Positions 13,217 to 41,319 of a stretch of 64,000 nt of DNA are shown one piece after another. The notes below the pieces were generated by a model. The model saw only the letters and a program-made list of their open reading frames with translations. It was not told where the DNA came from and made no database searches. Source of the stretch: Streptomyces sp. NRRL F-5630 (GTDB lineage: Bacteria; Actinomycetota; Actinomycetes; Streptomycetales; Streptomycetaceae); the NCBI RefSeq assembly GCF_000719475.1, contig NZ_JOGO01000008.1:62001-126000 (forward strand), given 5' to 3'. Position numbers and translations under genes: made by a program. Every line of letters starts with the position of its first letter. Within the stretch, counting starts at the first letter, position 1.

Positions 13217-14242
13217 TCACCCCACGCGCCGCCTCCGCCGTGCCAGCCACGTCTGCGCGATCACCACGACCGCCAGGAACGCGCCGGACACCACCTGCTG
13301 GTACGAGGAGTCCAGCGAACCGATCTGGTTGATGATGTTCTGGATCACTTTCAGCAGCAGGACACCGACGAGCGAGCCGCTCAGGAAACCGGACCCGCCG
13401 CTCAGGAGCGTCCCGCCGATCACCACGGCCGAGATCGCGTCCAGTTCCATACCGTTGCCGAGAATCGTCACGCCCGAGGCCAGCCACGCCGCGTTCAGGG
13501 CGCCCGCGAGCCCCGCGCACAGCCCCGACAGCGTGTAGACGTACGCCTTCGTACGGGCTACCGGCACCCCCATGAGCGCCGCCGCGTCCTCGTTCCCGCC
13601 CACCGCGTACACGTACTGCCCGAAGCGACTGCGGCGCAGCGCCACTCCGCCGAGCAGGAACAGCGCGACCGTGAGCCACACCGGGACCCCGACGCCGAGC
13701 AGCTTGCTCTGCCCGAGGTGCGTGAACCACGTCGACTTGTCGACAAGGTAGGTGTTCGCGCCCTCGTCCGTCACCGCGAGCAGCAGCCCCCGCGCGCCCA
13801 GCATCGACGCCAGCGTCACGATGAACGGGGCGAGCCGTGCCCGCGAGATGAGCAGCCCGTTCACCAGACCGATGAGCCCGCACACCGCGAGCGGCAACAG
13901 CAGTGCCACGGCGGTGCCGTACCGCGAACCCCACGCCGCGAGCACCCCGCCGAGCGCGAAGAGCGAGCCCACCGACAGGTCGATGCCGCCCGTGACGATG
14001 ACGAAGGTCATGCCGAGCGCCACCACGGCCAGGAACGACGAGGACAGCGCCATGCCCTCCAGGTTGTCCCCGGTCAGGAACGTGTCGAAGGACAGGCTCG
14101 CGACGACGACCGCCACGACGAGCGTGAGCAGCGCCCCGTGCTGCTGCGCGAGCGCGCTCAGCCGCTCCCCGCGCCCGGGGCCCCGTTCCTCGGGGAACAC
14201 CCGCTTCTCCTCGGCCGGGACCTCGGCGATCGTGCCGTTCAC
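13217..14242 (-). CDS. Sugar ABC transporter permease (YjfF/RbsC type)
   Basis: 341 residues from the GTG at 14242, which overlaps the stop of the upstream permease (GTGA). About ten hydrophobic segments belong to the branched-chain/ribose permease family. The signature LGMTFVIVTGGIDLSVGSLF occurs near residue 75-95 and a second GNEDAAALMGVPVARTKAYV at the cytoplasmic loop. It is the last gene of a four-gene importer operon and resembles E. coli YjfF, one of the two permeases of the galactofuranose importer. The second permease is encoded just upstream. Confidence 0.9.
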   Translation of the reverse strand: MNGTIAEVPAEEKRVFPEERGPGRGERLSALAQQHGALLTLVVAVVVASLSFDTFLTGDNLEGMALSSSFLAVVALGMTFVIVTGGIDLSVGSLFALGGVLAAWGSRYGTAVALLLPLAVCGLIGLVNGLLISRARLAPFIVTLASMLGARGLLLAVTDEGANTYLVDKSTWFTHLGQSKLLGVGVPVWLTVALFLLGGVALRRSRFGQYVYAVGGNEDAAALMGVPVARTKAYVYTLSGLCAGLAGALNAAWLASGVTILGNGMELDAISAVVIGGTLLSGGSGFLSGSLVGVLLLKVIQNIINQIGSLDSSYQQVVSGAFLAVVVIAQTWLARRRRRVG

Positions 14243-15201
14243 CGCTTCCCCCTCTCCCGCGCCGCGTAGACCGCGAGGACGATGACGACGGCCTGCGCGA
14301 TCTGCGTCCACGAGGGCGGCAGGTCGTGCTTGATGAGCGTGGCCGTCAGCAACTGGATGAGCACCGCGCCCGCGACCGTGCCGCCGATCCGTACCCGGCC
14401 CCCCGACAGCGGGGTGCCGCCCACCACGACGGCGGTGATCGCGGAGAGTTCCATGAGCGTGCCGAGCGAGGTCGGGTCGCTCGCCTGGAGCCGTGCCGTC
14501 GCGAGAATCCCCGCCACCGCCGCGAGCAGCCCCGACACCACGTACACGATCACGAGCACGCGCCGCACCGGGAGCCCCGCGAGTTTCGCCGCCGCCCGGC
14601 TGTCGCCGATCGCGAGCAACTGCCGCCCGAACGTGGTGCGCCGCACCACGAAGGCCACCACCACGGCGAGCACGGCCGCGATGAGGACGAGATACGGGAT
14701 GCCCAGCACGGAGCCGGTGCCGAGCGTGTTCATCCCCGGATTGCGCACGTCCTTGAGCTGGGGCAGCAGCACGAGCGCGAGACCGCGACCGCCCACCATC
14801 AGCGCGAGTGTCGCCACGATCGGCTGCACCCCGACGAAGGCGACGAGCGCTCCACTGGCGAGCCCCGCGAGCACCCCGCCGAGCGCCGCCATGAGCAGCG
14901 CGGGCACGAGCCCGTACCCGAGGTAGAGCGAGAGGAGCGAGGTCGCGAGCGCCATCACCGCGCCCACCGACAGGTCCACGCCCTCGGTGCCGATCGCGAG
15001 CGCCATGCCGAGCGCCACGATGACGATCGGTGCGACCTGGACGGCCTGGGTGCGGAAGTTCTCGGTGGACAGGAAGTGGGGCGTAAAGGCGATGTTGACG
15101 AGGAGGAGGACCACGACGCCCGCGTAGACGCCGTACTCCTGGAGCAGTCGGCGCAGCCGCTGCCGGTCGGCGAGCGTCGCGCGCAGTGCCAGCTCAGTCA
15201 T
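14239..15201 (-). CDS. Sugar ABC transporter permease (YtfT/RbsC type)
   Basis: 320 residues, multi-spanning. The family signature is LGMALAIGTEGVDLSVGAVM; in the related YjfF-type partner this reads VTGGIDLSVGS, so the two are paralogues forming a heterodimeric pore. The loop AIGDSRAAAKLAGLPVRRVL is the usual ATPase-contact region. The start overlaps the end of the ATPase gene by 8 bases, so translation is probably coupled. Neighbours and gene order match ytfQ-ytfR-ytfT-yjfF. Confidence 0.9.
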   Translation of the reverse strand: MTELALRATLADRQRLRRLLQEYGVYAGVVVLLLVNIAFTPHFLSTENFRTQAVQVAPIVIVALGMALAIGTEGVDLSVGAVMALATSLLSLYLGYGLVPALLMAALGGVLAGLASGALVAFVGVQPIVATLALMVGGRGLALVLLPQLKDVRNPGMNTLGTGSVLGIPYLVLIAAVLAVVVAFVVRRTTFGRQLLAIGDSRAAAKLAGLPVRRVLVIVYVVSGLLAAVAGILATARLQASDPTSLGTLMELSAITAVVVGGTPLSGGRVRIGGTVAGAVLIQLLTATLIKHDLPPSWTQIAQAVVIVLAVYAARERGKR

Positions 15202-16825
15202 CCCCGTCCCCCCTCCCGGCGGCGTCGCGCCCTCCGCCCCCGCCGCTTCCGCCGCCCCCGCCGAGGAGCGCGTCCCCGGCCGGTACCACCGAGGCGATCT
15301 CGGCCTTGCCCGCCTTCTCGTCCGCCGAGGGCGCGGTCGCGATCGCCGCCATGAGGTGGTCCTCGCTCACCTCGGCCCCCGACAGTTCGGCGACCACCGC
15401 GCCGTCCTTCAGCACCACCACGCGGTCCGAACCCTCCACGAGTTCCTCCGGGTCGGAGGAGATGAGCACGACACCGAGGCCCTCCCCGGCCAGTTCATCG
15501 ACGAGCCGCTGCACCTCCGCCTTCGCCCCGACGTCGATGCCCCGGGTCGGCTCGTCGAGAAGCAGCACCTGCGGGTGCATCGCGAGCCAGCGCGCCAGCA
15601 GCACCTTCTGCTGGTTGCCCCCGGACAGCTCGCCGACCTTCTGGCCGACGCCCGAGGTCTTGATGCGCAGCCGCTTCACGAAGGTGTCCACGATCCTGTC
15701 GACGCGCTTCTCGTCGACGAGGCCGAAGCGCGAGAGCCCCGGGAGCGCGGCGAGCGCGATGTTCTCCCGCACCGAGAGGCCCGGCACGATGCCCTCGGCC
15801 TTGCGGTCCTCGGGCAACAGGCTGATCCCGGCACGGATGGCGGCGGGCGTCGACCCGGTGCGTACGGGAGCGCCGTCCACCGCGACCGTGCCCGCGTCGG
15901 GCGGCAGCGCGCCGGCCACGGCCCGCACGGTCTCGCTGCGGCCCGAACCGAGGAGCCCGCCGAGCCCGACGACCTCCCCGGGGCGGACCGCGAACGACAC
16001 CTTCTCCAACTGGTGCCGCACCGACAGTCCGTCCACGGCGAGTACCGGCTGCCCCTGCCGGGCGTGGTTGCCCGTGAACTTCGTGACGCCCTCGGCACGC
16101 ACCTCGCCGAGCTGCCTGCCCAGCATGAGCGAGACGAGCCGCAGCCGCTCCAGCTCCGCGAGCGGCCCGGTGTGCACGACCTTGCCGTCGCGCAGCACCG
16201 TCACCTGGTCGCACACCTCGTACAACTCGTCGAGCCGGTGACTCACGTACACCACCGCGATGCCCCGCTCGCGCAGCATCCGGATGACGCCGAAGAGCGT
16301 CTCCACCTCACGCGGTTCGAGCGAGGACGTCGGCTCGTCCATGATGACGACCTTCGCGTTGACCGAGACCGCGCGGGCGAGCGCCACCATCTGCTGTGTG
16401 CCGACGCTGAGTTCGCCCAGCGGACGGCGTACATCCACCCGCACGCCGAGCGCCGCGAGCGCCTGGGCCGCCTCGCGGTGCATCCGCCCGAAGTCCACGA
16501 GGCCGAGGGCGCGCCGCGGCTCGCGGCCCAGGAAGAGGTTGCGCGCCACGCTCATGAGCGGGACGAGGTTGACCTCCTGGTAGATCGTGGAGATCCCCGC
16601 CTCCTGTGCCTGGAGCGGCGTCGCGAACCGCACCTGCTCGCCCTGGTACGTGACGCTGCCCCCGTCGGCGCGGTAGACCCCGGTCAGCACCTTGATGAGC
16701 GTGGACTTCCCGGCGCCGTTCTCCCCGATGAGCGCGTGCACCTCGCCGGCGCGGGCGGTGAAGTCCACGCCGTCAAGGGCACGCGTCCCGGGAAAGACCT
16801 TGGTCAGTCCCGTGACGGAGAGCAT
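15194..16825 (-). CDS. Sugar ABC transporter ATPase, two nucleotide-binding domains (YtfR/RbsA type)
   Basis: 543 residues from ATG at 16825, overlapping the binding-protein stop (ATGA); an in-frame extension upstream is non-coding in character. First ATPase domain: GENGAGKSTLIKVLTG, ELSVGTQQMVALARAVS, VIMDEPTSSL. Second domain: GLGGLLGSGRSETVRAVAG (degenerate Walker A), ELSGGNQQKVLLARWLA, LLLDEPTRGIDVG. This double-domain layout is typical of monosaccharide importers. A glycine-rich C-terminal tail (GGGGGSGGGGG-like) ends the protein. Confidence 0.93.
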   Translation of the reverse strand: MLSVTGLTKVFPGTRALDGVDFTARAGEVHALIGENGAGKSTLIKVLTGVYRADGGSVTYQGEQVRFATPLQAQEAGISTIYQEVNLVPLMSVARNLFLGREPRRALGLVDFGRMHREAAQALAALGVRVDVRRPLGELSVGTQQMVALARAVSVNAKVVIMDEPTSSLEPREVETLFGVIRMLRERGIAVVYVSHRLDELYEVCDQVTVLRDGKVVHTGPLAELERLRLVSLMLGRQLGEVRAEGVTKFTGNHARQGQPVLAVDGLSVRHQLEKVSFAVRPGEVVGLGGLLGSGRSETVRAVAGALPPDAGTVAVDGAPVRTGSTPAAIRAGISLLPEDRKAEGIVPGLSVRENIALAALPGLSRFGLVDEKRVDRIVDTFVKRLRIKTSGVGQKVGELSGGNQQKVLLARWLAMHPQVLLLDEPTRGIDVGAKAEVQRLVDELAGEGLGVVLISSDPEELVEGSDRVVVLKDGAVVAELSGAEVSEDHLMAAIATAPSADEKAGKAEIASVVPAGDALLGGGGGSGGGGGRDAAGRGDGDD

Positions 16826-17928
16826 CAGAAGGCCTTGCCCAGGTCGGCCGCGGCGTTGTCCTTGTCGTAGGCGCTGTCCTTGATGACGATGTCCTGCCGG
16901 ACCTCCTCGCCCTTCGTGAAGGTGTCGAGGGTCTGGAAGGCGAGCGGGCCGAAGCGCGGGTTGGACTCGATGACCCCCGAGATCCAGCCGTCCACGATCT
17001 GCTTGACCGCGTTGCGCGTCCCGTCGACCGTCACGATCTTGACGGCGCCGGGCTTCTTGCCCGCGCTCTTGAGGGCGTTGACGGCGCCGAGGCCCATCTC
17101 GTCGTTCTCGGCGTAGACGCCCTTGATCCCGGGCTTGGACTGGATGAGCTGCTCGGTGACCGACTGGCCCTTCTCGCGGGAGAAGTCGCCCGTCTGCTCG
17201 AAGACCACCTTGAGGTCCGGGGCCTTCTCGGCGATGCGGTCCTTGAAGCCCTTGGTGCGCTCCGTCGTGACGTTGTTCCCCGCCGCGCCGAGCAGGATCG
17301 CGACCTCGCCCTTGCCGCCCGTCGCCTCGATCATCTTGTCCGCCGCGCGCTTGCCCTGCTCGACGAAGTCCGAGCCGATGAAGCTCACATAGTCCTTGCA
17401 GGGCTCGGCGTTGATCTTGCGGTCGATTGTGACGATCGGGATCTTCTTGGCGCTCGCGGCCCGCAGCACCGGCTCCCAGCCGTCGGAGTTGAGCGGGGCG
17501 ATGACCAGCAGGTCCGCGCCCTTCGCGATGAGGTCCTGCACATCGCTGATCTGCTTCGAGAACTGCGACTGCGCGTTGACGGCGAGGAGTCTGACGCCGC
17601 GCTTCTTCGCCTCGGACTTGAGCGAGGCCGTCTCCGCGATGCGGAAGGGGTTGGCCTCCTTCTCGGACTGCGAGAAGCCCACCGTCGCCGAGGCGAGGTC
17701 GATCTTCTTCGCCCCGTAGGCGTCGAGCGTGCAGCCCTTGCCGCCGGCCGCCGGGGTCTCGACGACCTGCCCCGCGTCCTTGCCCCCGCTCGCGGTCGCG
17801 TTCTTGTCCTTCGACCCGCTGTCGTCGTCCTCCGACTTGGCGCAGCCGGTGGCGAGGGCGAGACTCGCGGTCAGGGAGACGGCCACCAGGGCCTTGAGGG
17901 TGGTGCGGTGGTACGCGGACGACTTCAT
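16825..17928 (-). CDS. Sugar-binding lipoprotein (YtfQ-like, periplasmic binding protein family)
   Basis: 367 residues from ATG at 17928, preceded by GGGAG. A lipoprotein signal with lipobox LATGC puts Cys near residue 29, so it is anchored outside the membrane. The mature part is a two-lobed LacI-like binding fold: ATVGFSQSEKEANPFRIAET, VIAPLNSDGWEPVLRAASA, IPIVTIDRKI, FEQTGDFSREKGQ. These track E. coli YtfQ, which binds galactofuranose, including the GWEPVL and GDF-R-KG regions. Substrate by inference: galactofuranose or a related furanose/oligosaccharide. Confidence 0.9.
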   Translation of the reverse strand: MKSSAYHRTTLKALVAVSLTASLALATGCAKSEDDDSGSKDKNATASGGKDAGQVVETPAAGGKGCTLDAYGAKKIDLASATVGFSQSEKEANPFRIAETASLKSEAKKRGVRLLAVNAQSQFSKQISDVQDLIAKGADLLVIAPLNSDGWEPVLRAASAKKIPIVTIDRKINAEPCKDYVSFIGSDFVEQGKRAADKMIEATGGKGEVAILLGAAGNNVTTERTKGFKDRIAEKAPDLKVVFEQTGDFSREKGQSVTEQLIQSKPGIKGVYAENDEMGLGAVNALKSAGKKPGAVKIVTVDGTRNAVKQIVDGWISGVIESNPRFGPLAFQTLDTFTKGEEVRQDIVIKDSAYDKDNAAADLGKAF

Positions 17929-18040
17929 GGTGTTCTCCCGTAGCGGCACGGACCCGTGCGAGCGCACGGGCACGAGGGAAAGGAACGTGGTCGTACTGCG
18001 GTCGACCCGCGACCGGGGTCAACTCCGCTTGTGCGTCTGG

Positions 18041-18069
18041 TTTTTACATCGTTGGAAGGTGGCTGTAAA
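18041..18069 (-). promoter_or_regulatory. Importer promoter with LacI-type operator
   Basis: On the minus strand TTTACA (18064-18069) and TAAAAA (18041-18046) are 17 bp apart. The spacer and -10 contain TTCCAACGATGTA (complement of 18045-18057). This matches TTGCAACGTTGTA upstream of the GH2 gene at 11 of 13 bases and is centred on AACG, as LacI-family operators are. Repression by the adjacent LacI protein is the simple reading. Confidence 0.65.
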
Positions 18070-18117
18070 CCCCTCGCGGCCAAGGCGCCCCCGCCGGGGT
18101 GTTCGGCGACGCGGGCC

Positions 18118-19164
18118 TCAGCGCCGTCCGAGTGTGCTCTCGCGCTCCAGGAGGCGGAAGGGGGCGAGGACGGAGGGCTGCTGCTCGGGCGGCGCGTCCC
18201 CGTCCCCGTTCACGCGCCGCGCCGCCGCCCGCTCCAAGGAGCTGACCAGCGAGGACACCGCGAGCCGGGCGATCGCCTTCTTGTCGGGCGAGATCGTCGT
18301 GAGCGTCACGGCGCCGTACCGCGACTCCGGCACGTCGTCGAATCCGACGACCGCCACGTCCCACGGGACCCGCAGGCCCCGCTCGTGCAGCACCCGCATC
18401 GCGCCCACCGCTACCAGATCGTTGTAGGCGAACACCGCGTCAGGCCGCATCCCCGAGTCGAGAAGCCGCGCCATCCCCTCGGCCCCGTCCCCCCGGTCCC
18501 AGCCCCCCGTGGGGGCCGCGAGCCGCTCCCCGCCGTCGAGCCCGGCCGCCCTCAGCTCCTCCCGCCAGCCCTGGAGCCGCAGTTGGGCGGGCCTGTTCGG
18601 GGAATCGGTACGGGCCCCGAGGAAGGCGATCCGCGTCCGGCCGAGCCGGATGAGGTGCCGCACCGCGCTACGGGCCGCCGCGACGTTGTCGATCGCGATG
18701 TGCGGGTACGGCAGCGCGTACTCCCGCTCCCCGAGCAGCACGAGGGGTACGTCGTCCGTCCGGGCCGACAGGTCCTCCGGCTCCAGTTCCAGCGGCGAGA
18801 GGATCAGCCCGTCGATGACCCGTGCCCGGAAGCCCTGGCTGACCAGGACCTCCCGCTCGCGCTCGCCCCGGGTGTGGTCGAGCAGCACCGTCAGCTCGTG
18901 CTCGGCCGCCGCGTCGATCACCTCCCCCGCCAACTCGGCGAAATAGGGATTGCCCAGCTCGGGGACCGCGAGCGCGATGATCCCCGTCCGCCCCTTGCGC
19001 AGGTTGCGGGCGGTCAGATTGGGGCGGTACCCCAGTTCGTCGATGGCCCGCTGGACCCGCTCCCGCATGGCCGGCGTGACGTGCTCGTAGTGATTGACCA
19101 CGTTCGAGACGGTCTTGATCGACACGCCCGCCAGTTGCGCGACGTCCTTGAGGCTCACCCGCAC
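18118..19164 (-). CDS. LacI-family transcriptional regulator of the galactofuranoside-like locus
   Basis: 348 residues. HTH at residues 3-24 (SLKDVAQLAGVSIKTVSNVV) with the hinge helix PNLTARNLRKGRTG near residues 48-61, then a periplasmic-binding-like sugar domain to the end (FAYNDLVAVGAMRVL and VAVVGFDDVPESRYGAVTLT). It lies between the importer operon and the divergent secreted GH2 gene, and similar operator sites face both. It should repress both until the imported sugar binds. Confidence 0.92.
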   Translation of the reverse strand: MRVSLKDVAQLAGVSIKTVSNVVNHYEHVTPAMRERVQRAIDELGYRPNLTARNLRKGRTGIIALAVPELGNPYFAELAGEVIDAAAEHELTVLLDHTRGEREREVLVSQGFRARVIDGLILSPLELEPEDLSARTDDVPLVLLGEREYALPYPHIAIDNVAAARSAVRHLIRLGRTRIAFLGARTDSPNRPAQLRLQGWREELRAAGLDGGERLAAPTGGWDRGDGAEGMARLLDSGMRPDAVFAYNDLVAVGAMRVLHERGLRVPWDVAVVGFDDVPESRYGAVTLTTISPDKKAIARLAVSSLVSSLERAAARRVNGDGDAPPEQQPSVLAPFRLLERESTLGRR

Positions 19165-19265
19165 GAAAACCCCTCCGCTTCACTCCGCGTCCCGGCGCCC
19201 GGGCGCGTCTGTCATGACCCTGGACAGTAGGCGAGAGGGCGTGCTCTCATGCCAACTGCCGTTCC

Positions 19266-19278
19266 TTGCAACGTTGTA
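19266..19278. promoter_or_regulatory. LacI-type operator between lacI and GH2 genes
   Basis: TTGCAACGTTGTA is nearly palindromic around AACGTT and sits in the divergent region, 113 bp before the GH2 start and 102 bp before the lacI start. It is the better-symmetry copy of the site in the importer promoter (18045-18057). Confidence 0.65.
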
Positions 19279-19378
19279 CAGACTGGAACGGCGAGCCGCC
19301 ACCCTTCCTCGACATGACATCGCGGGACCTTGCGCCAAGGCCCCCGTGGCAATGCCTCACGGCAAGAAGGAGGAGCAC

Positions 19379-22069
19379 GTGCGCAACCGCAGCAGATTCT
19401 CCCCGGCAGGGGGCGTGGGACGCCCCCTCGCCCTGTGCGCCGCCGCGCTGCTGGGCCTCGCGGGACTCACCGCGACACCCACCGCCAGCGCCTCGGACAC
19501 CGGGAGCACCCGCCCCGCGGCAGGCACCCTCACCCCCCACCCCGCCGCCCACGAACCCGGCACCGTGGAGCCGTCGGAGCTGCACGGCCTCCGGGGCGAC
19601 TACTACACCCAGTCCGCCCCGGGCGCCTTCGACTTCGACCAGCTCAAGGCCACCGCCTTCGACCCCTCGCTCGACTTCGACAGCCTGGAGTCCCGCCTGC
19701 AACAGGCCACCGGCCGGTCCGACGACGTCAGCGTCCGCTGGACGGGCCGCCTCGTCCCCGGCGAGAGCGGCGAGCACACCTTCCAGATCAAGGGCGACAA
19801 CGGTTTCCGGCTCTGGATCGGCGACACGCTCGTCATCGACCACTGGGTCGACGACTGGGACAAGGAACAGGTCTCCCAGCCCGTCACCCTGGAGGCGGGC
19901 AAGGCGTACGACCTCAAGCTGGAGTACTTCGAGCACGAGGGCGGCTCGAACCTCCACTTCTCCTGGACCCCGCCGGGCGGCACCCAGGCCCCCGTCCCGC
20001 AGTCCGCCTTCCGCACCCCCGAGGACTGGTCCTACGACGGCGCCACCTCGGCGACCGTCACCAGCACCGGCCGCACCCTCGCACTCGGCTTCCCGCGCTC
20101 CCTCGCCACCCCGCCGAGCACCGTCGCCAAGCACCTCAGCGCCAACATCGGCGGCGCCGACTGGCCCCTCGGCACCGTCCGCAAGGACCCCGCCGACCCC
20201 GCGAAACTCCTCGTGACGCTCAAGGAACCCGTCGTCGGCGCGGGCGGCTCCGTCGACGTGCGCTACGACGGCCAGGGCGGCCTGCGCACGAAGGGCGCCG
20301 ACGGCTCCACCATCGGCGCTTTCTGGGCGGGCGGCGCCAACGAGTCCACGTACCAGCTCAGCACCCGCTGGGCCAAGGACGTCGGCCCGAAGAACGCGCA
20401 CCCCGAGTACCCGCGCCCCCAGCTCACCCGCGACCGCTGGCAGAACCTCAACGGCACCTGGCAGTTCGCGGCGGCCAAGGAGGGCGAGGCCCCGCCAATC
20501 GGCAAGAACCTCGCCGAACGCGTCCTCGTCCCCTACCCCGTCGAGTCGCAACTCTCCGGCATCGAGCGCCACGAGGACCGCATGTGGTATCGGCGCACCT
20601 TCACCGTGCCGGCGAACTGGAAGGTCGGCCACGACCAGCGGCTCCAGCTCAACTTCGACGCCGTCGACTGGCAGGCCGACGTCTGGGTCAACGGCAAGAA
20701 GGTGACCAGCCACAAGGGCGGCTACGACCGCTTCTCCGCCGACGTCACCGACGCGCTCAAGCCGGGACGCACGCAGGAACTGGTCGTCGGCGTCCACGAC
20801 CCGACCGACGCGAAGAGCGGCGAGAACCCGCCCGTCGGCAAGCAGCGCCTCGACCCCAGCGGCATCTGGTACACGCCCAGCTCCGGCATCTGGCAGACCG
20901 TCTGGATGGAACCCGTCGCGGCCGAGCACGCCGACGCGCTCACGCTCACGCCCGACGTCGGCAACAAGCGCCTCGCCGTCGACGTCGCCGCCACCCGCGC
21001 GGGGCTCCCCGTGACCGCGACCGCCTACGACGGCAAGCGCAAGGTCGCCACCGTCCACGGCCGCACCGGCACGACCCTCCGCCTCCCCGTCAAGAACCCG
21101 CACCTGTGGTCACCCGACGACCCCCACCTCTACCGCCTGGAGGTCACCACCGGGAACGACCGCGTCGGCAGCTACTTCGGTATGCGGGACATCGCCGTCC
21201 AGAACGTGAACGGCACCCCGCGCACCGTGCTCAACGGCAAGCCCGTCTTCATGATGGCCACGCTCGACCAGGGCTTCTGGCCCGACGGCCTCCACACCGC
21301 GCCCACCGACGAGGCCCTCAAGTACGACCTCGTCCAGCACAAGAACCTCGGGTTCAACTCCGTGCGCAAGCACATCAAGGTCGAACCCGACCGCTGGTTC
21401 TACTGGGCCGACAAGCTCGGTCTCCTCGTGTGGCAGGACATGCCGGCCATGTCCGCCGTCCCCGACGAAGCGAGCGAGAAGGCCCAGTACGAGCACGAGA
21501 TGAAGCGGATGATCGACCAGCACGCGAGCAGCCCCTCGGTCATCATGTGGGTCACCTTCAACGAGGGCTGGGGACAGTACGACCAGGCCCGCGTCGCCGA
21601 CCAGGCGAAGAAGTGGGACCCCAGCCGCCTCGTCAACAACATGAGCGGCCTCAACTGCTGCGGCGCCGTCGACGGCGGCAACGGCGACATCGCCGACGCG
21701 CACGGCTACCCCAGCCCGGCCCTCCCGGCGCCCGACGGCAAACGCGCGCTCGTCAGCGGCGAGTTCGGCGGTCTCGGCCTCGCCGTACCGGGCCACGCCT
21801 GGCCGGTCCAGCAGAGCTACATCGGCGTCGAGAAGGAGGCGTACACCGACGAGTACCTCAAGAAGGTCGACGAGGTCCACGCCCTCGCCTGCAAGGGCGG
21901 CAACGGCTCCGTCTACACGCAGATCGCCGACGTCGAGGGCGAACTGAACGGCATCATGACCTACGACCGCTCCGTCATGAAGGCAGACGTCGGCAAGGTC
22001 CGCGCCGCCCAGCGCGCCCTGATCGACGACGCCTCGCGGGACACGGTACGGGGGTGCCCGGCGAGCTGA
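19379..22069 (+). CDS. Secreted PA14-GH2 family glycoside hydrolase
   Basis: 896 residues from GTG at 19379, chosen for AAGGAGG 7 bases upstream and the signal peptide that follows (cleavage near ASA-SD, residue 38). PA14 domain at about residues 67-200 (GLRGDYYTQSA, HTFQIKGDNGFRLWIGDTLV), likely glycan binding. GH2 sugar-binding and Ig-like domains at about 345-600, with WYRRTF and DWQADVWVNGKKV. Catalytic barrel to the end: acid/base Glu about 729 in FNEGWG, nucleophile Glu about 795 in SGEFGG. Streptomyces GH2 enzymes with this context include beta-galactofuranosidase; beta-galactosidase is the alternative. Confidence 0.9.
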   Translation: MRNRSRFSPAGGVGRPLALCAAALLGLAGLTATPTASASDTGSTRPAAGTLTPHPAAHEPGTVEPSELHGLRGDYYTQSAPGAFDFDQLKATAFDPSLDFDSLESRLQQATGRSDDVSVRWTGRLVPGESGEHTFQIKGDNGFRLWIGDTLVIDHWVDDWDKEQVSQPVTLEAGKAYDLKLEYFEHEGGSNLHFSWTPPGGTQAPVPQSAFRTPEDWSYDGATSATVTSTGRTLALGFPRSLATPPSTVAKHLSANIGGADWPLGTVRKDPADPAKLLVTLKEPVVGAGGSVDVRYDGQGGLRTKGADGSTIGAFWAGGANESTYQLSTRWAKDVGPKNAHPEYPRPQLTRDRWQNLNGTWQFAAAKEGEAPPIGKNLAERVLVPYPVESQLSGIERHEDRMWYRRTFTVPANWKVGHDQRLQLNFDAVDWQADVWVNGKKVTSHKGGYDRFSADVTDALKPGRTQELVVGVHDPTDAKSGENPPVGKQRLDPSGIWYTPSSGIWQTVWMEPVAAEHADALTLTPDVGNKRLAVDVAATRAGLPVTATAYDGKRKVATVHGRTGTTLRLPVKNPHLWSPDDPHLYRLEVTTGNDRVGSYFGMRDIAVQNVNGTPRTVLNGKPVFMMATLDQGFWPDGLHTAPTDEALKYDLVQHKNLGFNSVRKHIKVEPDRWFYWADKLGLLVWQDMPAMSAVPDEASEKAQYEHEMKRMIDQHASSPSVIMWVTFNEGWGQYDQARVADQAKKWDPSRLVNNMSGLNCCGAVDGGNGDIADAHGYPSPALPAPDGKRALVSGEFGGLGLAVPGHAWPVQQSYIGVEKEAYTDEYLKKVDEVHALACKGGNGSVYTQIADVEGELNGIMTYDRSVMKADVGKVRAAQRALIDDASRDTVRGCPAS

Positions 22070-22226: not shown

Positions 22227-23693
22227 TCAGCCCGGCAGCCCGCCGCGCCGGATCACCTCCGCGTACCAGTGGGCGCTCGCCTTCGGGATGCGCCGCTGCG
22301 AGGCGTAGTCCACGTACACCGCGCCGAAGCGCTTCGCGTACCCGTAGGACCACTCGAAGTTGTCGAGCAGCGACCACAGGAAGTACCCGCGCACGTCCGC
22401 GCCGTCCGCGAGCGCCTGCCGCACCGCCTCCAGGTGGGAGTGCAGGTACGCGATGCGCTCGGGGTCCTCGACCCGGCCCTCGGGCGAGACGTAGTCGTCG
22501 AAGGCCGCGCCGTTCTCGGTCACCATGAGCGGCAACTCGGGGTGCGTCGCGTGCAGTTCGGTGAGCAGGGTGTGCAGGCCCGAGGCGTCGACCGCCCAGT
22601 TCATCGCCGTGCGCTCACCCGGGGCCAGGTGGAAGGCGACGTCCTCGGAACCGGTCCACGGCGAGTGGTCGCTCGCCCCGTGCCCGTCGTCGCGCGCGTC
22701 GCCCGTGCCGTCCGAGGCGGAGACGATCGTCGGCGTGTAGTAGTTGACGCCGAGCACGTCGAACGGCGTCGCGATGGTCTCCAGGTCACCGGGCCTCACG
22801 AGCTCGTCCCAGTCCACGAGCGGTGCGGTGCGCCGGCGCAGGTCCTCCGGGTAGCCGCCGTCGAGCAGCGGGCCGGTGAAGATCCGGTTGCCCACCTCGT
22901 CGATCCGCCGCGCCGCGTCCGCGTCCTCGGGGCTCGTCGTGAGCGGGCGCACCTGGTGCAGATTGAGCGTGATCGAGGTCTGCGCCTCCGCGGGGAGCAG
23001 CCCGCGCAGCACCTGGACGCCCTTGCCGTGCGCCAGGTTGAGGTGGTGCGCCGCGCGCAGCGTCGCCGCCGGCTCCGTACGGCCCGGGGCGTGCACCCCC
23101 GAGCCGTAACCGAGGAACGCCGAGCACCACGGCTCGTTGAGCGTCGTCCACATCGGCACGCGGTCGCCGAGCGCCCCCGCGACGAGCGCCGCGTAGTCCG
23201 CGAAGCGCTCGGCCGTGTCGCGCAGCGGCCAGCCGCCCGCGTCCTCCAGCTCCTGCGGGAGATCCCAGTGGTAGAGCGTCGCCACCGGCGTGATCCCGGC
23301 CTCCAGGAGCGAGTCCACCAGCCGCCGGTAGAAGTCGAGCCCCCGCTCGACGGCCGGGCCGCGGCCCGTGGGCTGCACGCGCGACCAGGAGAGGGAGAAG
23401 CGGTAGGCGCCGAGGCCCAGCTCCTTCATCAGCGCGACGTCCTCGCGGTAGCGGTGGTAGTGGTCCGCCGCGATGTCACCGGTGTCGCCGTTGCGCACCT
23501 TGCCGGGGGTGTGACTGAAGGTGTCCCAGATCGACGGGGTCCGGCCGTGCAGCGTCGCGGCCCCCTCCACCTGGTACGAAGCGGTCGCGGCACCCCACAG
23601 GAAACCGGTGGGGAAGCCGGTGGGGGACGAGGAGGACGAGGCGCCGGGCGCGGCATCCGGCCGAGAGGAGGACTCGGGTCGTACAGCGGTCAT
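22227..23693 (-). CDS. bglC: GH1 beta-glucosidase, BglC-like
   Basis: 488 residues with no signal peptide, so intracellular. GH1 motifs: [16 protein letters not shown] near residue 30, acid/base Glu187 in TLNEPW, nucleophile Glu393 in TENGA, and [13 protein letters not shown] near the end. It should hydrolyse imported cellobiose and cello-oligosaccharides to glucose. It follows the ceb-like transporter genes. A CebR-box-like palindrome lies directly before the ATG and includes the GGGAG ribosome binding site. The N-terminal 25 residues are Ser/Pro-rich and dispensable-looking. Confidence 0.9.
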
Positions 23694-23694
23694 A

Positions 23695-23708
23695 TGAGAG
23701 CGCTCCCA
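23695..23708 (-). promoter_or_regulatory. CebR-box-like operator before bglC
   Basis: TGAGAGCGCTCCCA differs by one base from the known CebR box TGGGAGCGCTCCCA. It lies between cebG and bglC and covers the bglC ribosome binding site, so a bound repressor would affect this gene directly. Confidence 0.75.
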
Positions 23709-23735
23709 TGAAGTGAAGGGGAAGGAAGGAAAAGC

Positions 23736-24656
23736 TCAGCCCTTGACCGCGCCGGCCATGATGCCGCCCACGATCTGCTTGCCGAAGACGATGAACACCA
23801 CGATGAGCGGCAGGGTGCTGATGAGCGCGCCCGCCATCACGATCGACTGATCGGGGGTGTACGAGGCGCTGAGCTGGCCCAGCGCCACCTGGACCGTCGG
23901 ATTGGACTGGTTGAGCGCGAGGAACGGCCAGAAGAAGTCGTTCCACGCCTGCACGAAGGTCAGCATGCCGAGCACCATCATGGCGGGCCGCGCGGCCGGC
24001 AGGACGACACTGCGCACGATGCGCAGGTTGTTCGCGCCGTCCACCTTGGCGGCCTCGATCAGCTCGTACGGCAGCGCCTCGATGAGGTACTGCCGCATGA
24101 AGAAGACGCCGAAGGCGCTCACGAGCGTCGGGAAGATGACGGAGGGGAGCTTTCCGCCCCAGCCGATGTCCGACATGATCATGAACAGCGGGACGACGCT
24201 GAGCTGCGGCGGGATGGTGAGCGTCGCGATCACCGCGGTCATGAGGACCCCGCGCCCGCGGAAGCGCAGCTTGGCGAAGGCGTACCCGGCCAGGGTGCAG
24301 AAGAACAGCGTCGCCGCGGTGATGCAGCCCGCGACGATGAGGGTGTTCACGAGCGCCTTGCCGAGGCTGGCCTGCTCCCAGGCCGCCTGGAGGTTGTGCC
24401 ACAGGCGGCCGCCCGGCAGGAACGGCGGCGGGCTGTCGAGCACCCGCTGCTGATCGTGCGAGGCGGCCACCAGCGTCCAGTACAGCGGGAAGACGGAGAG
24501 CAGGCCGACCACCGCGAGAGCGATGTACGTGAACGGGCCGCCGCGCAACTGCTCACCGGCGCCGATGCGGAAGCGGCTTCGGCCGGACGTCTTCGGTCCG
24601 GGGGCCGCGGGGTCCGTGGCGGCGAGCACGGAAGGAGTGGGTGTGGTCGTGGTCAT
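23736..24656 (-). CDS. cebG: Cello-oligosaccharide ABC permease, CebG-like
   Basis: 306 residues from ATG at 24656, preceded by GAGGGAG; an upstream in-frame extension covers the CebF gene in another frame and is a shadow. Six membrane segments of the MalG-type permease family. The EAA-like loop is LIEAAKVDGANNLRIVRSVV followed by LPAARPAMMVL, the ATPase contact site. It pairs with the upstream permease. No ATPase gene is in the operon, as in other ceb operons that use the shared MsiK. Confidence 0.88.
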   Translation of the reverse strand: MTTTTPTPSVLAATDPAAPGPKTSGRSRFRIGAGEQLRGGPFTYIALAVVGLLSVFPLYWTLVAASHDQQRVLDSPPPFLPGGRLWHNLQAAWEQASLGKALVNTLIVAGCITAATLFFCTLAGYAFAKLRFRGRGVLMTAVIATLTIPPQLSVVPLFMIMSDIGWGGKLPSVIFPTLVSAFGVFFMRQYLIEALPYELIEAAKVDGANNLRIVRSVVLPAARPAMMVLGMLTFVQAWNDFFWPFLALNQSNPTVQVALGQLSASYTPDQSIVMAGALISTLPLIVVFIVFGKQIVGGIMAGAVKG

Positions 24657-24670
24657 GGGTTCGCTCCCTC

Positions 24671-25666
24671 TCAGCCCGCGCTCTTGCGCAGGAAGCGGCC
24701 GATCAGCCACTGGATCAGCGCGATCAGCAGCAGCAGGGCGAGCATCGACCAGGCCACGGCGGCGGCCGGGCCGAGGTGGCCGAGCTTCCAGCCGTAGTTG
24801 TAGAGATAGATGCTCAGCGTCTCGTACTGGTGCTCGCTGCCTCCGGTGGCACCGAGTGTGCCGCCCTCCAGGAGCAGCGGCTCCCCGAAGAGCTGCATCG
24901 AGCCGATCGTCGAGATGACGATGGTGAAGAGGATCGTCGGCCGCAGCGAGGGGATCGTCACCTTGCGGAACTGCTGCCAGCGCGAGGCCCCGTCGATCGA
25001 CGCCGCCTCGTAGAGGTCGGCGGGCACGGCCTGCATCGCGGCGAGGTAGATGAGCGCGTTGTAGCCGGTCCAGCGCCAGATGACGATGACCGAGATGGCG
25101 ATCTTCGAAGTCCAGTGCCCGTTGGCCCAGTTGGTGTCGCCCAGTCCGACGAAGTGCAGCAGGTAGTTGAGCAGACCGCCGTCGGGGCGGAAGACGAGCG
25201 CGAAGACCAGCGCGGCGGTGGCCACCGAGGTCGCGTACGGGGTGAGGATCACCGTGCGCCAGAACGTCGAGGCGCGCAGCCGGTAGTTGAGCAGGTGGGC
25301 GAGGCCGAGCGCCACGAGGAGCTGTGGCACGGTCGAGATGACACCGATGATGAAGGTGTTCGCGACCGCGTCCCAGAACTCGCTGTCGCCCAGGACGCGC
25401 TGGAAGTTGTCGAGCCCGATCCAGGTGGACTGGTCGAGCCCGGTCAGCTCGACGCGGTGCAGCGCGATCCAGCCGGTGTAGAGCAGCGGGTAGAGACCGA
25501 AGGCGGCGAAGACGAGGAAGAACGGGGCGATGTAGGCGTACGGCGACGCCTTGTCGTCCAGGCGCCACAGCCGGCTGCGCAGCCGGCGGCGTGCCTCGGC
25601 GCGTGCCTCGTCCCCCGCCGGGGGCGGGGGAGTGGCGGACGGCCTGGTGGGGGTGGAGGTGGCCAC
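24671..25666 (-). CDS. cebF: Cello-oligosaccharide ABC permease, CebF-like
   Basis: 331 residues from GTG at 25666, chosen for AGGAAAGGA just upstream. Membrane segments begin at PYAYIAPFFLVFAAFGLYPL. EAA loop: LYEAASIDGASRWQQFRKVT then IPSLRPTILFTIV. MalF/UgpA-type sugar permease. It is downstream of the solute-binding lipoprotein gene by 86 bp and 14 bp ahead of the second permease. Confidence 0.88.
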   Translation of the reverse strand: MATSTPTRPSATPPPPAGDEARAEARRRLRSRLWRLDDKASPYAYIAPFFLVFAAFGLYPLLYTGWIALHRVELTGLDQSTWIGLDNFQRVLGDSEFWDAVANTFIIGVISTVPQLLVALGLAHLLNYRLRASTFWRTVILTPYATSVATAALVFALVFRPDGGLLNYLLHFVGLGDTNWANGHWTSKIAISVIVIWRWTGYNALIYLAAMQAVPADLYEAASIDGASRWQQFRKVTIPSLRPTILFTIVISTIGSMQLFGEPLLLEGGTLGATGGSEHQYETLSIYLYNYGWKLGHLGPAAAVAWSMLALLLLIALIQWLIGRFLRKSAG

Positions 25667-25752
25667 GGTTGTCCTTTCCTTCCAGGACGGACGGACGGGG
25701 AAAGGGATGCCCGGGGTGGCCCGCCGGCGCGCGGGCCACCCCGGGCGCACCG

Positions 25753-27072
25753 TCAGCCGATCGACTTGTCGATGGTCTCGGTGGCCGCCTTCCAGGCGTC
25801 GGCGGGCTTGGTGCCGCGCTGCTCCATGTTGTTGATCTGCTTCGAGATCTCGTCCTTGATCGAGGCGTCCTTCGCGCCGAGGACGGCCTCGGGGATCGCC
25901 TGGGCCTCGGCCGCGTAGATCTCACCGATCGGTGCGTTGTTGAAGTACGGCAGCGTCGCGGTCTTCACGTCCGGGAGGTCGTACGCCTTCTTGTTGGACG
26001 GGAAGATGCCGACCGCCTTGAAGGTCTTCGCCTGCTGCTCGGGAGCGGTCAGCCACTTGACGAGCGCCGTGGCCTCCTTGACGTGCTTGCCGCCCTTCGG
26101 AACGCTCAGGAAGGAACCGCCCCAGTTGGCGGCCGTGTCACCGGGCGACTTGGCGATGTCCCACTTGCCCTTGAAGGCGTCCCCTGAGTTGGTCGAGATC
26201 TGCGCGGCCATCCACGCGGGGCAGGCCACCGTCGCGATCGTGCCCTTGCGCAGCGCGTTCGTCCACGGGTCCTGGAACTGCGCGAGGCCCTGGCTCAGCT
26301 TCTTGTCGGCGACCTCGGCGGCGAGCTTCCAGCCCTGCTTGACGCTGGCGCTGTCCTTGTAGATCGCCTTGCCGCTCTTGTCGTAGTACTGCTCGGCGTT
26401 CGAGGAGACGACGGCGTTGAACATGGCGCTCGCGGAGTCCATGAAGTACGTGCCCGCGGGCGCCTTCTTCTTGTACTCCTGACCGAGCTTGATGTAGTCC
26501 TCCCAGCCGCCTGCGACGGCCTTGGCCACCGTCTCGCGGTCGTCGGGCAGCCCCGCCTTCTCGAAGAGGTCGCGGCGGTAGCACAGGGACATCGGGCCGA
26601 TGTCGGTGCCGGCGCCGATCACCGCGCCGTCCTTCGTGGTGGCCTGCTTCTCCTTCCAGGAGACCCAGTCGCCCACGTTGATCGACTTGCTGAGGTCGAC
26701 GAACTTGTCCGCCTGGGTGTCCGTGACCTCCTTGACGCGCCCGACCTCGACCCCGACGACGTCACCGAGACCACTGTTGCTGTTGAGCTGCTGGAGCAGC
26801 TTCGGGTAGTAGTCCGCCTCGTTCGCGGTGGTGTCTTCCTTGACCGTGATGTTCGGGTGGAGCTTGTGGTACTCGTCGAAGAGCTTCGCCTCCTTGTACC
26901 CGAACTGGCCGTAATCGGCGACGGTCAGGGTGATCGATCCGTCGGACGCCTTGTCCGAGGAGTCGGAGTCGTCGCTGCAACCGGTCAGTACGAGGGCGCA
27001 GGCCGTCAGGGTCGTGGTCGCGAGGACCACGCTCTTCCTGGCGCGGCCGGGGGCCGTTCGGGTAATGCGCAT
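25753..27072 (-). CDS. cebE: Sugar-binding lipoprotein, CebE-like
   Basis: 439 residues from ATG at 27072, with AGGAG upstream. The signal peptide carries twin arginines weakly (RARKSVVLATTTL) and lipobox LVLTGC, Cys near residue 32. The mature part is a family 1 extracellular binding protein starting SITLTVADYGQFGYKEAKLF, close to CebE of Streptomyces. It should capture cellobiose/cellotriose for the two permeases. CebR-like boxes upstream support the assignment; without the boxes it could be any oligosaccharide. Confidence 0.85.
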   Translation of the reverse strand: MRITRTAPGRARKSVVLATTTLTACALVLTGCSDDSDSSDKASDGSITLTVADYGQFGYKEAKLFDEYHKLHPNITVKEDTTANEADYYPKLLQQLNSNSGLGDVVGVEVGRVKEVTDTQADKFVDLSKSINVGDWVSWKEKQATTKDGAVIGAGTDIGPMSLCYRRDLFEKAGLPDDRETVAKAVAGGWEDYIKLGQEYKKKAPAGTYFMDSASAMFNAVVSSNAEQYYDKSGKAIYKDSASVKQGWKLAAEVADKKLSQGLAQFQDPWTNALRKGTIATVACPAWMAAQISTNSGDAFKGKWDIAKSPGDTAANWGGSFLSVPKGGKHVKEATALVKWLTAPEQQAKTFKAVGIFPSNKKAYDLPDVKTATLPYFNNAPIGEIYAAEAQAIPEAVLGAKDASIKDEISKQINNMEQRGTKPADAWKAATETIDKSIG

Positions 27073-27186
27073 TCCACTACTCCTAGTTCCGGCAACGGTG
27101 CCGGGTCGAGAAAGCGGCGTGTGGGAGCGGGTGGTGAAGCGGTGCCGCTCAGGCCGGTGGGGCTGCGCGCATGCGTGCGACGGCCT

Positions 27187-27223
27187 GAGGAACGCTCCCA
27201 CGCCCGACGTGGGAGCGTTCCCA
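27187..27223. promoter_or_regulatory. Tandem CebR-box-like operators upstream of cebE
   Basis: TGGGAGCGTTCCCA (27210-27223) matches the CebR box at 13 of 14 bases. On the other strand GAGGAACGCTCCCA (27187-27200) is a weaker second copy (11 of 14), and a half-site TGGGAGCG occurs at 27122-27129. Centres are 115-145 bp before the cebE start, so the transcript should have a long leader. Confidence 0.75.
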
Positions 27224-32647: not shown

Positions 32648-33949
32648 TCACGCGGGGGCCCACAGGTGCCGGGAGCCGAGCCCGGCGACGTCGAGGGCGA
32701 GTTCGGCGTACATGGCGTTGGCCCAGGAGAACCAGGGGCGGGTGAAGCGCCGCGGGTCGTCCTTGTGGAACGACTCGTGCATCTGGCCCGTCCCCGCGTC
32801 GGTCGCGAGGAGGGTGTTCAGGGCCGTGTACCCCTCCGCACGGTCGGTGCTGGTCAGCCCTTGTACGGCGATCGCGATGGGCCAGATGTGCCCGTCGGGG
32901 GTGTGCGGGCTGCCGATGCCCTCGGCGGCCGCTCCCCGGTGCCAGGTGGGGTTCGCGGACGAGAGGACGAACCCGCGGGTGGCGAGGTAGACGGGGTCCG
33001 TGGCCGGGATGTTCGCGACGAGGGGCAGGGAGAGCAGGCCCGGCATGTTGGCGTCGTCCATGAGGAGTGTGTTGCCGTGGCCGTCCACCTCGTAGGCGTA
33101 GATCACGCCGTGCTCGGGGTGGTGGACGGTGCCGTGGCGCAGGACGGCGGTACGCAGCTCCGATGCCAACTGGGCCGCTCCTTCGGCGAGTTGCGTGTCG
33201 TCGGTGAGGCGGGCCAGTTCGGCGGTTCCGTCGAGGGCGGCGGCGGCACACAGGTTCGCGGGAATGTTGTAGCCGTAGGCGCACGCGTCGTCGCTGGGCC
33301 GGAACCCGCTCCAGGTCATCCCGGTCCGGGCGACGGGCGTGCCGCGTCCCGCGTTCGGCAGGGTGTCGCTCGGCGGGCAGTTCCGGCGGAGGAAGCGGTA
33401 CGTGGAGCGGTCTTCGTGGTCCTGCTCCGTGCGCCAGATCTCGATGGCGGTGCGGGCCGTCCGGAGAGTGGCGGCGACGTGGTCGGTGCGCCCGGTCGCC
33501 GCCCAGAAGCGACGGGCGAGGAGGAGCGGGAAGGCGAGGGAGTCGACCTCGTACTTCGCCTCCCACACCCACGGGTCCTCGCACAGGTCGTCCGGGTCGT
33601 GGGCGCGCCCGGACGGTTCGGCGTTGAAGGCGTTGGCGTAGGGATTGCGGGCGATCTGCTGGAACTGGCGGCGCAGCACGGCGAGTACGAGGTCCTGCAA
33701 GGGCGCGTTGTCCTCCAGGAGCGCGAGGTAGGGCATCAGCTGTGTCGAGGAGTCGCGCAGCCACATGGCGGGGATGTCGCCGGTGACGACGAAGGCGGTG
33801 CCGTCGGGCATGGGCCGGATGGTGCGGGCGAGGGTGTCGTCGAGGCAGCGCGTCAGCGTCCGGCCGAGGCGCGGGTCGCCGAGGTCGTCGAGCCGTCGTA
33901 CCGCCCGCTGGACGATCGGGTGGTCCTGGACGCTGGTGGGGAAGCGCAT
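32648..33949 (-). CDS. GH125 exo-alpha-1,6-mannosidase
   Basis: 433 residues from ATG at 33949; the upstream in-frame part runs through repetitive intergenic DNA. No signal peptide, so intracellular. The (alpha/alpha)6 barrel starts MRFPTSVQDHPIVQRAVRRL. Catalytic-cleft motifs are VTGDIPAMWLRDSSTQLMPY and VWEAKYEVDSLAFPLLLARR, with MTWSGFRPSDDACAYGYNIP and EGIGSPHTPDGHIWPIAI later. GH125 enzymes release mannose from alpha-1,6-mannosides with inversion. It is last in a minus-strand set with LacI, ROK kinase and mannose-6-phosphate isomerase. Confidence 0.92.
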   Translation of the reverse strand: MRFPTSVQDHPIVQRAVRRLDDLGDPRLGRTLTRCLDDTLARTIRPMPDGTAFVVTGDIPAMWLRDSSTQLMPYLALLEDNAPLQDLVLAVLRRQFQQIARNPYANAFNAEPSGRAHDPDDLCEDPWVWEAKYEVDSLAFPLLLARRFWAATGRTDHVAATLRTARTAIEIWRTEQDHEDRSTYRFLRRNCPPSDTLPNAGRGTPVARTGMTWSGFRPSDDACAYGYNIPANLCAAAALDGTAELARLTDDTQLAEGAAQLASELRTAVLRHGTVHHPEHGVIYAYEVDGHGNTLLMDDANMPGLLSLPLVANIPATDPVYLATRGFVLSSANPTWHRGAAAEGIGSPHTPDGHIWPIAIAVQGLTSTDRAEGYTALNTLLATDAGTGQMHESFHKDDPRRFTRPWFSWANAMYAELALDVAGLGSRHLWAPA

Positions 33950-34008
33950 GGGCGGGCCTTTCGGCGGTCGGGCGGAAGGGCTGGGGCGCGGAAGTCCGCA
34001 CGGGGTCG

Positions 34009-34110
34009 GGCATACGTGCACGGGGCGGCACACGTACAGGGGGCATGGCATACGTACCTGCGGCACGGCATACGCGAGGCCGTCGTCCGCCGAAGCCGAA
34101 GCCGAAGCCG
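34009..34110. repeat. 20-bp tandem repeats and a GCCGAA hexamer run
   Basis: In the 191-bp gap between the LacI and GH125 genes, units starting GGCATACGT or GGCACACGT occur at 34009, 34027, 34047 and 34067 (18-20 bp each). GCCGAA is repeated three times from 34089. Possibly slippage products; a regulatory role is untested. Confidence 0.7.
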
Positions 34111-34140
34111 CACCCGGACCTGGCCCCGGCCCCGAAGGTG

Positions 34141-37867: not shown

Positions 37868-37899
37868 AGGTGCTCCTTCATGGGCTGCGAGGCGAGCGA

Positions 37900-37911
37900 G
37901 TTAACGATAAC
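37900..37911. promoter_or_regulatory. LacI-type operator near the manA-like gene
   Basis: GTTAACGATAAC is palindromic at 10 of 12 bases with a CG centre, 33-44 bp before the manA-like start. It stands out as an AT-rich site in the divergent intergenic region. Confidence 0.65.
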
Positions 37912-38029
37912 AATGCCTGGCCGAAGGTGTCCATGGTCGATCCGTCACTCCTCCGCCTGAACGAAATGGCTATGACCTGCGGCAATTCTGCGTCAGTCTC
38001 TTGAGCCGCATTCTTTTCGGCGTGAAGTC

Positions 38030-38059
38030 TTGCTACCGCAGGAATGGTGTCGTTAACCT
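38030..38059 (+). promoter_or_regulatory. Promoter and operator for the mannan importer operon
   Basis: TTGCTA (38030-38035) and TAACCT (38054-38059) are 18 bp apart. GGTGTCGTTAAC (38046-38057) overlaps the -10 and matches the complement of the site at 37900-37911 at 10 of 12 bases. The start codon is at 38163. Hexamers are read by eye. Confidence 0.5.
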
Positions 38060-38162
38060 CCACGCAACACACACCGGGCAGCTCCCCTGTTCCACCGGCG
38101 TCGTAAGCGCCCCGTGATGCACATCCAGCCATACAGGTGGCCCGCTTCCGTGAAGGTGATCC

Positions 38163-41250: not shown

Positions 41251-41269
41251 GCCCGCAGTCTCCCCGCAC

Positions 41270-41319
41270 GGCTGAGCCGTCCGTACGGCTGAGCCGCCCC
41301 CTCCCGGCAGGGCTGAGCC
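41270..41319. repeat. Three GGCTGAGCC copies between permease and GH76 genes
   Basis: Copies at 41270-41278, 41287-41295 and 41311-41319 are identical 9-mers with near-dyad symmetry in a 146-bp gap. They may be hairpin-forming or binding repeats, or simple duplication. Confidence 0.5.

Follow-up and report, generated by a model that had tools for sequence, protein, structure and literature searches.

The window analyzed here, a stretch of 64,000 nucleotides from contig 8 of the Streptomyces sp. NRRL F-5630 genome (G000), carries between positions 13217 and 22069 a locus in which the gene for a LacI-family regulator lies together with genes for a sugar importer and a secreted hydrolase. Leftward from position 19164, the minus strand encodes the LacI protein (18118..19164; PF00356 and PF13377), a predicted furanose-binding lipoprotein (SBP) similar to GafA and YtfQ (16825..17928; a LATGC lipobox is seen in its translation), a YtfR-like double ABC ATPase (15194..16825; PF00005 in two stretches) and two CUT2 permeases with PF02653 domains, one YtfT-like (14239..15201) and one YjfF-like (13217..14311). 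On the plus strand, divergent from lacI, lies the gene for a secreted PA14-GH2 protein, a predicted beta-D-galactofuranosidase by its Pfam domains, PDB matches and position in a tree (19379..22069; the GTG start is our choice). According to Pfam and NCBIfam, the SBP, the double ATPase and the two permeases follow the gene order of GafABCD/YtfQRT-YjfF. All genes that the first-pass annotation named for the interval 16825..22069 are present; as that interval ends at 16825, though, the ATPase and both permeases fall outside it. The recognition helix of the LacI protein, GVSIKTVSNVVN, is conserved among its homologues.

Predicted operators of the locus and the source genome

The motif TTSCAACGWTGTA occurs without mismatch at 18045-18057 on the minus strand (operator 1, TTCCAACGATGTA) and at 19266-19278 on the plus strand, in the intergenic region from which lacI and the GH2 gene diverge (operator 2, TTGCAACGTTGTA). 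Even when 2 mismatches are tolerated, the window contains no match besides these predicted operators, and both are exact at the coordinates where the first-pass annotation had placed one shared motif, i.e., at the importer promoter and before the GH2 gene. With the same tolerance, 5 in 100 shuffled windows also contained at least 2 matches; judged from the window alone, the motif is therefore no more than suggestive. A search of the whole genome (7.06 Mb), which had been proposed as a check, yielded 3 exact matches, two at the locus and one before a gene for a GH127 protein; with up to 1 mismatch, 7 matches were found, as compared to 1 for the reversed control pattern. The 1-mismatch match at C48:25231, inside the coding sequence of a paralogous lacI, was set aside, as was that on contig C94 (L007), which was followed only to the reading frames nearby.

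Operator 1 occupies most of the spacer of a promoter-like stretch, TTTACA-17-TAAAAA, which can be read on the minus strand from 18069 to 18041. The 17-nucleotide spacer between -35-like and -10-like hexamers noted earlier is thus real, while the operator is not wholly inside it, as its last two bases overlap the -10-like hexamer. A promoter scan made no call at this stretch, and its -10 is poor. As TTTACA is the reverse complement of TGTAAA at one end of the operator, it may represent a half-site, with or in place of a -35 box.

Conservation of the operator pair across related loci

To define related loci we used the best 80 of 586 GH2 relatives, among which 56 were classified as window-type (GH2 with at least 63% identity); the loci nearest to the window locus, found via the GH2 protein, are from Streptomyces. 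A locus was scored as having LacI if a homologue with at least 65% identity was present anywhere in the fetched stretch; in 20 of the 22 window-type loci with LacI the end of this homologue is at most 330 bases from the GH2 match, and in 2 (L024 and L029) the homologue lies 2.9 kb behind that match. A site with up to 1 mismatch precedes GH2 in 21 of these 22 loci (22/22 with up to 2 mismatches), as compared to 6 of the 34 window-type loci without LacI (19/34 with up to 2 mismatches; some of these loci end at a contig edge). The difference between 21/22 and 6/34 is significant (P = 4.8 × 10-9, Fisher's exact test, relatedness not corrected). The SBP gene is preceded by a site with up to 1 mismatch in 17 of the 19 window-type loci that have both LacI and SBP, and all 19 carry TTTACA-N15-TGTAAA before the SBP gene, a pattern scored without requiring the operator core. 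Among the 24 other loci of the best 80, the 4 with LacI all have a site before GH2 and one has a site before SBP; for the 20 without LacI, a site was found before GH2 in 3 and before SBP in none of the 9 that have an SBP gene. Overall, the operator pair tracks the window-type LacI gene across species. The consensus of the operator was drawn from sequences that contain the core (43 distinct sequences on the importer side and 38 on the GH2 side) and is thus informative only in its flanks.

For 13 of the 34 window-type GH2 genes without LacI, only a 2-mismatch site was found, e.g., a TTGACAACGTTGTA-like site or TTACATCGATGTA (for example in L026, L031 and L040), which suggests that other regulators took over the GH2 gene at these loci. 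Among the eight Nonomuraea and Microbispora loci (L061-L068), the core CAACGWTG was absent from both strands in 7; in the eighth, L068, it is located 5.3 kb before GH2. Regulation in these genera thus appears to differ, although the genes for GH2, SBP, ATPase and permeases are co-directional in 7 of the 8 loci (L062 shows GH2 alone).

The PA14-GH2 enzyme

The best PDB matches of the window GH2 are 9j6n (617.7 bits) and 9j6m (615.4 bits), followed by 7sf2 (460.6 bits) and 7xyr (290.3 bits), while further GH2 enzymes scored about 111 bits or less. The available text of PMC12243196 describes 9j6n and 9j6m as the beta-D-galactofuranosidase of strain JHA19 (ORF1110) and places 9J6M in GH2_18 and 7XYR in GH2_19. 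When the enzyme is compared with characterized ones, as the first-pass annotation had advised, a galactofuranosidase of solved structure is thus closest; beta-galactopyranosidase or glucuronidase identity was rejected, as the matches to beta-galactosidases and beta-glucuronidases are far weaker. In a tree built with a quick method from at most 75 loci rows, with clusters L164-L175 left out, ORF1110 falls into a 74-row actinobacterial group together with the window GH2 (support 92) and apart from 7XYR and a second GH2 of the genome. Two long branches of this tree, those of ORF1110 and L078_14635, join each other. The second GH2 (L119 7020-8936, contig C28) is of the 7XYR (GH2_19-like) type and is accompanied by a CUT1 system; a related site, TTACAACGATGTAA, with the inverted ends TTACA/TGTAA, precedes it.

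The acid/base candidate of the window enzyme is E729 in FNEGWGQ (protein numbering, with F at 727), which matches the NE motif of E464 in ORF1110. According to the available text of PMC11084152, E464 and E573 of ORF1110 are named as catalytic, E573 as the nucleophile, and E464 was tested by mutation. If the numbering is set so that E464 falls on the NE motif, the E573 named in that text corresponds to E550 of the chain, which aligns with an Ala in the window GH2; the nucleophile may therefore be better sought in the GEFGG motif. The Glu of this motif (E795 in the window enzyme), which we take to be the nucleophile candidate, is spaced 66 residues from the acid/base Glu in both the window GH2 and ORF1110. 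In a loose motif count over 80 rows, the NE motif was missing in 3 and the nucleophile motif in 9.

A PA14 domain (PF07691, 86.6 bits) lies N-terminal to the GH2 part of the protein, which measures 896 amino acids from the chosen GTG. Among the 120 best relatives listed for the window enzyme, every one contains PA14, and 94 are 860-870 amino acids long. The catalytic region of window-type enzymes is 50-52% identical to that of ORF1110, for which the abstract of PMC4560423 reports galactofuranosidase activity only. A PA14-type galactofuranosidase, ORF0643, is known from strain JHA26, and its PA14 domain matters for Aspergillus fumigatus galactomannan (PMC5391426); its length is given as 869 amino acids in the available text of PMC7278926. 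The earlier statement that GH2 beta-galactofuranosidases of Streptomyces have been reported is borne out by these two enzymes. By homology, the window PA14-GH2 is thus a predicted beta-D-galactofuranosidase. Two further groups of galactofuranosidase-like GH2 proteins were seen, an ORF1110-like group and a PA14-type group (about 50% identical) whose open frames are longer; in many cases, genes of the two groups lie a few kb apart and at a similarly short distance from GH127 (including L164-L174).

The binding protein and the importer

The best matches of the window SBP are GafA of Mycobacterium smegmatis (PDB 6hyh/6hbd/6hb0) and the proteins of Shewanella and Escherichia coli, with 37-38% identity; the PDB matches also include 5ocp and 2vk2. 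None of the four importer proteins reached the cut-off of an NCBIfam equivalog (SBP, 196.9 bits with a cut-off of 510; ATPase, best match YtfR, 586.3 and 850; permeases, best matches YtfT, 178.7 and 535, and YjfF, 224.1 and 363). The available text of PMC10191376 states that the binding-site residues are identical in three GafA/YtfQ proteins, that the Arg38-Asp111 pair of the E. coli protein makes room for galactofuranose (Galf) and that Phe40 of the Shewanella protein probably blocks this sugar. The window SBP keeps Arg38, Asp111 and Glu41 of E. coli YtfQ, the last at the position of the Shewanella Phe40, while the stacking Trp of the GafA pocket is replaced by Phe. Among 71 homologues (window included, some sharing a genome), Phe was found at this position in 70 and Trp in 1; among the 19 rows with less than 70% identity, 1 keeps Trp. 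All pocket columns of the window protein were found in 69 of the 71 rows, with one row differing at one column and one keeping Trp. The binding protein described earlier as YtfQ-type is thus GafA/YtfQ-like, and GafA and YtfQ are indeed its closest characterized relatives, with the Arg, Asp and Glu residues kept; it is not a strict YtfQ orthologue, given its 37-38% identity, the exchange of Trp for Phe and the missed cut-offs. In short, the protein falls outside strict GafA membership yet retains the traits that are described as accommodating Galf.

Linkage and co-occurrence of importer and GH2

We assessed co-occurrence in a panel of 199 Streptomyces genomes, 63 of which contain the SBP (E ≤ 1 × 10-60). 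A strong GH2 match (E ≤ 1 × 10-150) was present in 62 of these 63 genomes, as compared to 45 of the 136 genomes without SBP (P = 7 × 10-21, Fisher's exact test); the only exception, G117, has an SBP with 48% identity. With the window left out and one GH2 position counted per genome (i.e., that seen nearest to SBP), SBP has a galactofuranosidase-type GH2 on its contig at a distance of no more than 10.3 kb in 55 of 62 genomes. Moreover, in 4 of 12 fetched clusters (L164, L165, L166 and L174) an importer of this kind is encoded together with a homologue of LacI (69-82% identity) and a GH2 sharing 78-82% identity with ORF1110, and GH127 is present in three of the four. The proposal that release and uptake of one sugar belong to one regulon gains support from the operator pair that follows lacI and from this linkage and co-occurrence.

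A GH127-lectin protein behind the third exact site

The third exact site of the genome is located on another contig, 64 bases before the gene for an 811-amino-acid protein whose translation shows a twin-Arg-type signal and which has the catalytic and middle domains of GH127 and a ricin-B lectin domain. We fetched 30 GH127 loci (the genome's own copy and others with 61-72% identity); a site with up to 1 mismatch was found in 22 and one with two mismatches in 2. No site was found in the other 6, and in 4 of these the GH127 gene immediately follows a GH2 gene of the same orientation. In 15 of the 30 loci, the fetched stretch of some 5 kb also encodes a galactofuranosidase-type GH2. Among 150 genomes GH127 was found in 31, of which 30 also contain a strong GH2 match and 28 the SBP. 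The E-x-C and CC motifs are present in all 30 matched GH127 stretches. The only NCBIfam match of the protein was to aceric acid hydrolase (57.4 bits, with a cut-off of 950).

alpha-D-Galf has the ring configuration of beta-L-arabinofuranose (beta-L-Araf). Correspondingly, beta-D-Galf has that of alpha-L-Araf, as described in the available text of PMC11084152. We tentatively propose that the operator-bearing GH127-lectin protein acts as a furanosidase on a Galf glycan rather than as a beta-L-arabinofuranosidase and, most boldly, that it is an alpha-D-galactofuranosidase, a reading that we rate as speculative and rather doubtful. If it were true, the regulon would strip both anomers of Galf.

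Extent of the regulon and a second LacI group

From 34 genomes with an SBP of at least 75% identity we chose 10 further genomes, which together contain 32 exact sites, as compared to 1 match for the control pattern. Of the exact sites, 19 are located at the counterparts of the window locus (one of them placed by coordinates), 3 before GH127, 8 at loci of LacI paralogues and 1 before a gene for GH43; 1 was not fetched. The motif is thus specific but common to a second LacI group, which has the same recognition helix, SIKTVSNVV. The source genome itself encodes such a paralogue on contig C48, with the same helix and 52% identity to the window LacI. This paralogue gene adjoins a gene of the Gfo/Idh family (L120 6260-8745), and members of the paralogue's own family have the same operator in other genomes. 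The GH43 gene behind an exact operator (L236 307-1437, genome G002) perhaps encodes one more furanosidase of the regulon.

These data bear on two alternative explanations. The operators might serve a family of LacI paralogues or several LacI proteins, so that the window LacI would control only part of the genes that bear sites; the helix shared with the C48 paralogue and the quarter of exact sites at paralogue loci speak for this, and a paralogue with the same operator bears in particular on which LacI controls the distant GH127 site. On the other hand, at window-type loci the occurrence of the site goes with that of the window-type LacI gene, and we judge this explanation unlikely, though deserving real weight. 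That the similarity of the operators reflects chance or a promoter remnant, with the genes being mere neighbours, could be argued from the shuffled windows; given the conservation of the site pair in many species and the single control match against 32 exact sites, we consider this extremely improbable.

The sugar of the regulon

Starting from the observed genes and sites and their observed conservation, linkage and co-occurrence, we consider it quite likely that the locus is a galactofuranose utilisation regulon, for which we infer substrate, ligand, LacI binding and induction from sequence. The LacI protein would hold the importer and GH2 promoters shut via the two copies of one operator. 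The secreted PA14-GH2 would, by homology, release beta-D-Galf from Galf glycans, e.g., those of fungi, and the GafA-like lipoprotein would catch the freed sugar, probably while it is still a furanose, for import by the CUT2 ABC complex. Inside the cell, Galf would relax to galactopyranose and then be fed into the Leloir pathway; the source genome encodes a galactokinase, and no galactose catabolic gene with an operator site was found. The secreted GH127-lectin protein encoded on another contig would form a further unit with the same operator. The earlier assignment of the locus to galactofuranosides agrees with the relation of its GH2 to the crystallized galactofuranosidase and with the sister clusters that pair importer and LacI with an ORF1110-like GH2, and on these sequence comparisons it appears well founded.

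Alternatively, the regulon could serve L-arabinofuranose, with the importer taking up L-Araf and both GH2 and GH127 acting as arabinofuranosidases on plant glycans. The available text of PMC10191376 reports a higher apparent affinity of YtfQ for L-arabinose than for D-galactose, and L-Araf is taken up by the GafA systems of Shewanella and M. smegmatis; moreover, the family of the co-regulated GH127 is named for beta-L-arabinofuranosidases. The source genome, however, has on contig 19 a separate set of araB, araA and araD, accompanied by a LacI gene of its own and a ChvE-type SBP (539.6 bits, with a cut-off of 460), and no ara gene was found among the window ORFs scanned. With araA as the only pathway marker counted, AraA_N (E ≤ 1 × 10-20) was found in 7 of the 63 genomes with the importer (56/63 without it), as compared to 26 of the 136 other genomes. 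In addition, ORF1110, whose homologues with 78-82% identity occur in the sister clusters, has no arabinofuranosidase activity according to the abstract of PMC4560423, and the residue of the Shewanella protein described in PMC10191376 as probably excluding Galf (Phe40) is replaced in the window SBP by Glu, as in E. coli. L-arabinose as the sugar of the regulon is thus disfavored by the low frequency of araA among the genomes with the importer and by the host's own ara locus, and we regard it as improbable.

Neighbouring loci in the window

An alpha-mannan-type locus is present at 32648-45872, with genes for GH125, LacI, a mannose-isomerase-like protein (weak match), a CUT1 importer, GH76 and GH38. 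As fungal galactomannan is an alpha-mannan with Galf side chains, this locus and the Galf locus could serve one substrate. We tried the alpha-mannan genes as part of a conserved Galf system and rejected this; 11 of 199 genomes contain a GH125 relative (E ≤ 1 × 10-100), and G010, whose GH2 is 93% identical, has none; the alpha-mannan locus is thus taken as a strain-level neighbour only. A GH1 beta-glucosidase and a CUT1 importer are encoded at 22227-27201, with two CebR-like boxes at 23695 and 27210 (one mismatch each). As many CebR-like boxes with up to 2 mismatches occurred in 17 of 100 shuffles. This segment is probably a cellobiose system, separate from the Galf regulon.

Comparison with known systems

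Galactofuranosidases have been cloned from soil Streptomyces, and uptake and sensing of the freed sugar were not described in the literature searched. Likewise, a regulon of this makeup was not described in the titles and abstract openings of that literature, a search whose coverage excludes most subscription journals. For such enzymes, the locus proposes an importer and a regulator, names an operator, predicts an inducer and points to GH127 as a further enzyme for Galf glycans; it represents a genomic handle for finding galactofuranosidases and, possibly, a basis for a Galf biosensor.

Among CUT2 systems, GafABCD/YtfQRT-YjfF of E. coli, M. smegmatis and Shewanella provide the best matches and the same four-gene order. 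The window importer differs from them by an SBP with only 37-38% identity, by the Phe in place of Trp, by scores below the NCBIfam cut-offs and by its LacI neighbour; it is also linked to a secreted galactofuranosidase-type enzyme, unlike GafABCD with its linkage to ara genes. The window enzyme resembles ORF1110 of JHA19 (PDB 9J6M/9J6N) as a secreted Streptomyces GH2 with an NE acid/base motif, with AbfB in ORF1110 where the window enzyme has PA14, and it shares with ORF0643 of JHA26, another secreted Streptomyces GH2, the PA14 domain, a comparison made by domain and size alone. The regulon GH127 has the domains and the E-x-C and CC motifs of the beta-L-arabinofuranosidase family, and is set apart by its distant match to 4qjy (65.9 bits), its ricin-B lectin tail and its location beside galactofuranosidase-type GH2 genes. 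CebR is an example of a LacI-controlled regulon for sugar import plus hydrolase in Streptomyces; regulons of this type also show one LacI and a near-palindromic operator with a central CG, whereas the regulon described here has another operator, another sugar and a CUT2 rather than a CUT1 importer. Each part of the regulon is therefore of a known kind, and what is new is the combination, the variant of the binding protein and the link to GH127.
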